A DNA stretch of 39,361 bases from Deltaproteobacteria bacterium (GTDB lineage Bacteria; Desulfobacterota; Syntrophia; Syntrophales; Smithellaceae): assembly GCA_026388535.1 (NCBI GenBank), contig JAPLJP010000131.1, forward strand, positions 1 to 39,361, given 5' to 3'. Within the stretch, counting starts at the first letter, position 1; each line of letters opens with the position of its first letter. Both the position numbers and the translations under genes were made by a program. Below are positions 3,142 through 25,362 of this stretch, piece by piece. The notes under the pieces are model-generated. The model ran no database searches. It was not told the DNA's origin and was given only the letters and a program-made list of their open reading frames with translations.

Positions 3142-3358
3142 ATATTTTTTGAAAAAATTCGTTTTAATAAATTACAGTTAGTGAAAAATTTCCTATATTT
3201 AAATGTAATCACAAAAGCATGTATAATACCATATTAAACTTGGGACTCATTATCAGTGCGTGTCAAATCCCGCTCCGTCGCAAATGCCCCCAAGGTGACC
3301 TTTAGGTTATTCAGGGTACTACGCTTCGGGCCTCTAAAAGGTGATCACTATCCTACGT

Positions 3359-3493
3359 CGCTTCGCTCCTGGGGTAATTCCACTTACGCTGCGAATCCCA
3401 CGTCGCTTCGCTCCTGGGATAATTTGACTTACGCTTCGAATCCCGCTCCGCTTCGCTCCGGGGATAGTTCCACTAACGCTTCGAGCATCGCTT
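3359..3493. repeat. Three tandem 45-bp repeat units
   Basis: Units at 3359-3403, 3404-3448 and 3449-3493 each begin CGCTTCGCTCC and continue with GGG(G/A)TA(A/G)TT..., diverging by several bases. The array is flanked on the right by a small hairpin (CACTC / GAGTG at 3498-3512) and a tail, TCAGCGAGTGTCA at 3503-3515. Because 45 is a multiple of three, spurious open frames with a repeating 15-residue pattern appear on both strands; I do not regard them as genes. The same 13-base tail and a related GGGATAATTT core recur at 13149-13290. Confidence 0.8.
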
Positions 3494-23471: not shown

Positions 23472-23646
23472 AAAAATTTGAAGCTCTTCGCGGCAAAAAT
23501 AATCTTCGATTAATAAGTAATAATATCATTCAGTGCTGGATCGCTTGCGCCGCAGCAAGTTATGGAGAATGTGTTTGCCACCGAATTCATATCCGACGAC
23601 AAACATCTTTAATAACTATTAAGTCATATAAAATACTCAAAAAAGG

Positions 23647-23670
23647 TTAAGGGGGCTGTTGCCCCCTTAA
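23647..23670. terminator. Bidirectional intrinsic terminator
   Basis: TTAAGGGGGC (23647-23656), TGTT loop, GCCCCCTTAA (23661-23670). TCACTTTTT follows on the plus strand, and CCTTTTTT follows on the minus strand. It serves both the UPF0371 gene and the convergent lipoprotein gene. The rest of 23472-23700 shows nothing I can assign. Confidence 0.9.
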
Positions 23671-23700
23671 TCACTTTTTAAATTATTAAACAGATAAATG

Positions 23701-25112
23701 CTAAAAAGCGCGGACAGGCCGAACTGGAAGAACATAGCCCTTTAATGTGCCCGTCTGGGCGCCATTGGAGAAGTCTTGGGACCAAACATCCCAAGTATCG
23801 TATTCAGACGAGCTCCAATATCTCATATCAGTGAACTCGCCCCACCTCGTCGCATCTCTTTGTGCATATAATTGAGCTAATTCATCTTTTGAAGGTAGAA
23901 ACCAGTCATCCAAGTTGCCTCCACGATAATCTCTGCATAACTTAGCCGCACTTTTCTGGTGTCCGGTTTGCGCTATAATAAAGTTACTATTCTCATATCC
24001 TGTTCCTATTGCAGTTGAAGTTTTACCATTTAAAGTTGTCTGGGTTACTTGAATTACAGAACCCCATTCGTCCGTTCTAGTATCTCCTTCTATCCACACG
24101 TATGATGGATCTCCAGTTGATGACGGATCTTCACTTAAATACCAATCCGGTGGCGCCATTTCTAAACCATGCGAGCCACTGGTACCGCCACCGTCTATGT
24201 AGAATACCTTGCCAACACAACTCGGACCTGGATCACCTATGGCAAAAGTAGAAGGTGTTGACGGGGGCGCCCAAGTCCATCGGGCATAAACTGTAATATC
24301 GCCCGTAACGGTTGTACTATCAGTAAACGGTGTAACACCATCAGCTTTATACCAACCTGCAAAAGTATAGCATGGTTTTGTAGGATTGGCTGGCCAATTA
24401 ACAACACCTACTGTGCCGGGCACCGGGATAACATATTTCTGGTCTACAGCGGTTCCGCCTTGACTATTAAATGTTACTGTCTTTCCGGGAGTAGCAGTCC
24501 ATTGGGCATAAACTGTAAGAGATTTAGTAGTTGGGTCTGCTAGACTTGTTACATTTGTGACGGCAGTGAACGCAATACCGCTGCCGTTTAACGCTGTGTT
24601 CCAACCGGTAAGCCGTTTAACGCTGTGTTCCAACCGGCAAAGGTATATCCACCGGTATTGGTCGGTGGTGCCGGGAATGATGAAACAGTATTTGCGGGTA
24701 GGGTTATTCCTCTGCTGGCATATACTGTTGAGGCATCTTTGTTGAAAATTACCCGATAATTATACCAATAGGCATAAACTGTTATATCCTCATTAACTTT
24801 TGTATCGGCTGTAAATGATGAACCATTGCCGCCTCTTTCTGTCCACCATCCGCCAAATTTATATCCGGACATTTCTGGATCGGACGGTAACGCGTCAACG
24901 GTGGTCGCCGGGGCTGTTACCGTTTTGCCGGTTGGATTTGGCATTTTCGTTTCGCTCTGGTTATTATTGAACTGACTATTAAAGGTTACTGTGTAAGTTT
25001 CTGCTGGAGTACTAATGGAACCTCCGGATGGTGATTTGTCGGCGCAGGCAATAATAGCAACGGTGGCGGTTAAAAGCATTAAAACAGAAATAATCTTTAC
25101 GGGAATTTTCAT
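23701..25112 (-). pseudogene. Lipoprotein with InlB B-repeats and DUF1566 domain, frame broken by a 29-bp tandem duplication
   Basis: Two minus-strand frames (ending at 24588 and starting before 24633) make one protein when a duplicated 29-bp unit is removed. The N-terminus is a lipoprotein signal: MKIPVKIISVLMLLTATVAI followed by I-A-C, with Cys as the predicted lipidated residue. Then come at least four Listeria-Bacteroides (Flg_new/InlB B) repeats, each ending like GYKFGGWW or YTFAGWN and ITVYAYW. The C-terminal 150 residues match DUF1566 (Lcl C-terminal type): WFLPSKDELAQLYAQRD, YWSSSEYD and LPVRPVRAF. It would be a surface or secreted adhesin-like protein. GGAGG lies five bases before the ATG at 25112. 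As assembled, translation stops at 24588 after about 174 residues. Whether the duplication is real, reversible or an assembly fault cannot be told here. Confidence 0.8.
24583..24640. repeat. 29-bp tandem duplication
   Basis: Units 24583-24611 and 24612-24640 differ at one base (T versus C near the end). 29 is not a multiple of three, so the copy number sets the reading frame of the lipoprotein gene. With one copy the frame runs YTFAGWNTALNG-SGIAF without a break. Confidence 0.95.
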
Positions 25113-25307
25113 ATTTCCTCCAAAGAACATGCGGTTTATTAAATGTATTATATGCTATTTGTCAATAATTTTATTCCTATTACTTAATCCGTGAATGTTT
25201 AATAATATTAATTTTATTGTTATATTTTTGACGTATTTTTAGGAATCTGCTTTTAAAATGAACAGGTTTTTGTTAGAACCACCAGCCTCTTCATGCGACA
25301 AAACAGA

Positions 25308-25336
25308 TTGACAAAAAAAACCTTTTAATTAATAAT
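25308..25336 (+). promoter_or_regulatory. Sigma-70 promoter of gap-pgk-tpiA
   Basis: TTGACA (25308-25313), 17-base spacer, AATAAT (25331-25336); the gap ATG is 27 bases downstream. Confidence 0.75.
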
Positions 25337-25362
25337 TTTCCTCCTAAATTAAGGAGGATAAT

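Follow-up and report, generated by a model that had tools for sequence, protein, structure and literature searches.

In Staphylococcus aureus, the icaC gene contains a 4-nt repeat tract, for which reversals in the laboratory and variants among clinical isolates have been described (PMC4117637). Mycobacterium tuberculosis carries longer tandem repeats whose copy number varies among strains and which were termed phase-variable by the authors; these are recurrent across lineages, and several of them are located in promoters (PMC12817950). Here, we describe a 29-bp tandem duplication inside a lipoprotein gene of a Smithella-group bacterium. It is located in a window of 39,361 nucleotides, that is the whole stretch of DNA that was analysed, on contig C91 of a MAG.

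Like icaC, this locus has a tandem repeat in the coding sequence that puts a surface-related gene out of frame, which contraction of the repeat can undo. Unlike the 4-nt tract of icaC (PMC4117637), it consists of two imperfect 29-bp copies. With the M. tuberculosis repeats it shares a unit size in the tens of bases, but it concerns one coding locus in one MAG and is absent from relatives (PMC12817950). The encoded protein resembles the lipoproteins of five relatives that combine List_Bact_rpt (PF09479/TIGR02543) and Lcl_C (PF07603, DUF1566) domains: it has the lipobox, the repeats and a C-terminal match to Lcl_C that falls below or above the curated cutoff depending on the scan. In contrast to these five intact Smithella-group homologues, it is split by the duplication, possesses one repeat fewer, and is found at a DUF1846/GAPDH locus and not in a YchF neighbourhood.

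The duplication and the two halves of the gene

The lipoprotein gene is encoded on the minus strand, from 25130 down to 23701. By sequence comparison, it contains two adjacent 29-bp units that are equal at 28 of 29 positions (Table 1). On the minus strand, the units start with TTGCCGG... and TTACCGG..., respectively, corresponding to a G-to-A difference, and their 26 terminal bases are equal; the array, 58 bp in total, is equivalent to two exact 26-bp copies separated by TTA. No comparable tandem was present in Markov shuffles of the window (n=3). The array was missed by Tandem Repeats Finder, even with a minimum score of 30, and was picked up by a separate repeat finder. The initial annotation had reported that a 29-bp tandem duplication at 24583-24640 breaks the gene, and the near-identical units, the two ORFs and their shifted frames bear this out.

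Table 1. Coordinates of the duplication, the split lipoprotein gene and neighbouring elements in the window.
Feature	Position	Strand	Remarks
N-half ORF, 180 aa	24588..25130	-	lipobox-bearing signal peptide, then List_Bact repeat 1 and the first half of repeat 2
First 29-bp unit (reading order)	24612..24640	-	TTGCCGGTTGGAACACAGCGTTAAACGGC; N-half frame; reads [F]AGWNTALNG
Second 29-bp unit	24583..24611	-	TTACCGGTTGGAACACAGCGTTAAACGGC; C-half frame; reads [L]TGWNTALNG; one base different
C-half ORF, 310 aa, stop-free	23701..24633	-	remaining part of the hybrid repeat; final List_Bact repeat; Lcl_C (DUF1566)
11-bp inverted repeat	24573-24583 / 24650-24660		91% complementary; brackets the duplication
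Terminator-like stem-loop	23645..23672		T-tailed on both strands; 30-55 bases beyond the end of the lipoprotein gene

The frames of the N and C halves are offset by 29 bases (29 mod 3 = 2), and the downstream frame is open over 310 codons. The N-half ORF ends with seven out-of-frame residues and then a stop within the second unit. Its signal sequence, as read from the sequence (...LLTATVAIIAC), ends in a lipobox-like VAIIAC, whose Cys is aligned in all five relatives. Both halves contain PF09479 (TIGR02543 List_Bact_rpt, InlB B-repeat family), with 60.5 and 52.1 bits (cutoff 27). In the C half, PF07603 Lcl_C (formerly DUF1566) scores below the cutoff of 34.9 with the protein scan (32.5 bits) and above it with the genome scan (35.9 bits), and the C part aligns with the intact homologues as far as the final residue. 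The domain matches and the intact relatives support the earlier proposal that the duplication breaks a lipoprotein gene with InlB-type repeats and a DUF1566 domain.

An independent start of the C half was considered and rejected: the earliest start codon that this frame offers, a TTG within unit 1, is accompanied by neither a signal peptide nor an evident ribosome site. Since no plausible start or signal sequence belongs to the C half itself, a truncated lipoprotein is the likely product. In the case of a chance null allele, the split would also caution annotators against calling two genes at this site.

Intact relatives, repeat number and genomic setting

We found an intact homologue of 533-585 codons in five same-genus genomes. 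These homologues possess four List_Bact repeats followed by Lcl_C, with one GW motif per repeat. None of the five carries the duplication at the equivalent place, where a single motif is present. When the GW-motif 29-mers of different repeats within the gene of one relative are compared, 10-24 of 29 positions are common. The 28/29 identity of the units in the window therefore indicates that they are copies of one motif and not two inherited repeats.

The window gene contains three List_Bact repeats (24283-24995) as compared to four in all five relatives, and the middle one is a hybrid of repeats 2 and 3. Upstream of the units, the sequence corresponds to repeat 2 (mean score 137 vs 64 for repeat 3, and 57 and 50), and the linker downstream of them is best fitted by repeat 3 (54 vs 43). 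With repeat 2 before and a repeat 3-like linker after, a repeat joint falls in or near the units.

The whole lipoprotein gene, together with the terminator-like stem-loop, is located between DUF1846 and GAPDH (window 23472-25362), whereas the spacing between these two genes is merely 95-210 bp in four same-genus relatives. In relative G003, the copy is flanked by YchF and a spermine-synthase-family protein, and in the other relatives that carry the gene the adjoining ORFs are similar in size to the neighbours in G003. At the MAG's own YchF locus, the lipoprotein gene is absent. To judge from gene order, the lipoprotein gene is accessory and relocated, which fits the tolerance of a null allele. 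The initial annotation overlooked this differing locus, as well as the missing repeat, whose joint is in the duplicated stretch.

Origin and age of the duplication

We favour, as the probable though by no means certain explanation, a real, recent, out-of-frame and sporadic 29-bp micro-duplication that inactivates a self-contained, accessory lipoprotein gene in a member of the Smithella group. The second unit would have arisen by chance, through a replication or repair error, and would not have evolved as a switch. The added 29-bp unit shifts the frame and leads to the stop within the second unit. Just the truncated 180-aa lipoprotein would then be made in the population that was sampled, or at least in the strain that dominates it. 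Such a product would be devoid of the last repeats and of the Lcl_C domain, and the allele would presumably be one of loss of function. Reversion by slippage would be possible at a low rate. If it is indeed a chance null allele, the locus would represent a small example of how accessory surface genes break in environmental bacteria.

We found no microhomology at the borders of the duplication, which counts against this explanation, since a slippage origin normally has microhomology. The G-to-A difference between the units also counts against it, as it requires either time after the duplication or a co-generated error. The 11-bp inverted repeat that brackets the array may or may not have promoted the duplication. 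Folding of the single units is marginally better than that of shuffles, and a hairpin as the cause of the duplication was rejected, the z values being just -1.6 and -0.8. A donor was likewise rejected, as a search of the genome gave no second copy of the gene or the unit.

The break looks young relative to species divergence. There are no stop codons in the C-half frame, and identity to the relatives amounts to 57-63% in the C-terminal domain, compared to 55-61% in the N part, values like those among the relatives themselves; for the same C-terminal domain, relative G003 is 55-60% identical to the other relatives. As the C half is free of stops and has diverged no further than the N half, we infer that the break is recent. 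This accords with the initial annotation, in which a single unit stood in the gene beforehand and the event was recent. No fixed two-copy state with a decayed downstream half was found: all five relatives have one motif, and the C half is undecayed. Dating by neutral decay from one mismatch was not decisive: given that the mismatch is a later neutral mutation, the C frame would have stayed undamaged with a probability of about 0.1-0.4, and with such values no inference on hidden selection can be drawn.

An alternative is that a single rearrangement produced both peculiarities of the gene. The loss of a repeat between repeats 2 and 3 would have abutted two GW motifs, and the units would correspond to the ends of the deletion. 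This would account for the three repeats found here against four in the five relatives, as well as for the scores of repeat 2 before the joint and of the repeat 3 linker after it; in addition, the base by which unit 2 differs (TTA) is that of repeat 3 in relatives G006 and G013. We nevertheless regard this scenario as unlikely. In the relatives, the repeat 2 and repeat 3 motifs have just 11-20 of 29 positions in common, far below the 28/29 of the units, and homologous exchange between them would give one in-frame copy. Moreover, the joint can be placed no closer than about 120 bp.

Assembly quality and possible switching

The duplication comes from a MAG of 2.86 Mb with 193 contigs and 5.75% contamination. 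Overlaps of contig ends that are equal to the maximum k are a signature of de Bruijn assemblers. Five pairs of contig ends overlap by exactly 141 bp, one of them including the window contig's own 5' end, and 141 is the final (maximum) k in a published MEGAHIT k-list (PMC10914622). The 58-bp array and its flanks fit within one k=141 k-mer, so the array was most likely present in the reads. On the strength of this argument the duplication is probably real. We do not base this on the one-base difference between the units, which had been put forward as showing that the array is not purely an assembly echo: strain variants would give the same mismatch.

Such a mismatch is in fact exactly what would be expected from an artefact in which a single unit exists in the population and the other arose as an echo when slightly differing strain paths or read ends were joined. 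The number of contigs and the contamination of the MAG are compatible with this, and assembly errors are the source of many frameshifted genes in public assemblies (PMC11017572). The assembly also contains two short N-runs, L091:5680-5687 (8 bases) and L113:17253-17264 (12 bases), which point to a possible degree of scaffolding or masking in an otherwise k=141-like, unscaffolded assembly; their flanks have no common overlap. However, one k-mer spans the array with its flanks, there is no N at the site, and the array is internal to the contig, away from any contig or k-mer boundary. A similar echo is also absent from 1.40 Mb of the assembly, and we consider an artefact to be improbable, to about the same degree as the single rearrangement. 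A recurrent assembly echo was rejected, given the lack of a second case in the 1.40 Mb and of any overlap between the N-run flanks.

In these 1.40 Mb, which represent half of the genome and come from the same assembly, no other tandem of 18-300 bp splits an ORF out of frame. All other clearly ORF-internal tandems in this size range have a period divisible by three. The remaining non-triplet tandems, of 121 bp (C141) and 20 bp (C136), involve no comparable gene split.

The initial annotation had likened the locus to phase-variable adhesins, with slippage between the units toggling the full-length lipoprotein. A surface lipoprotein with repeat domains, an out-of-frame unit length and an open downstream frame would suit an evolved switch of this kind, and reversible tandem-repeat switching is known elsewhere for short tracts, as in icaC (PMC4117637), and has been proposed for longer M. 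tuberculosis repeats (PMC12817950). Against it, there are just two units, which are imperfect (28/29), and no hypermutable tract; the duplication is missing at this place in all five same-genus relatives, and no second comparable locus is present in 1.40 Mb. Phase-variable switching was therefore not borne out, and we consider it very unlikely. Of the proposed reversibility, what stands is that slippage could in principle reverse the event, as for any short tandem duplication, whereas an evolved on/off switch is unsupported.

Less probable still is that the duplication in a conserved GW motif constitutes a reversible surface-lipoprotein switch in a non-pathogenic syntroph, in which repeat loss and doubling share a hotspot. 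Smithella is an environmental, syntrophic propionate-degrader group without pathogenic habit, and the presence of both alleles in one population, if true, would extend long-unit slippage switching to this group. A literature search for InlB repeats in Smithella gave no match.

Other repeated sequences were observed in the assembly. In the window, positions 3350-3484 contain three 45-bp repeat units (...AATTCCACTTACGCTTCGA...). A core pattern like that of this repeat has 16 occurrences in 1.40 Mb of the assembly, suggesting that the units belong to a dispersed repeat family. Finally, contig L128 (G000:C148, 4782 bp) presents a 129-base overlap between its own ends, and may thus be a small circular element.
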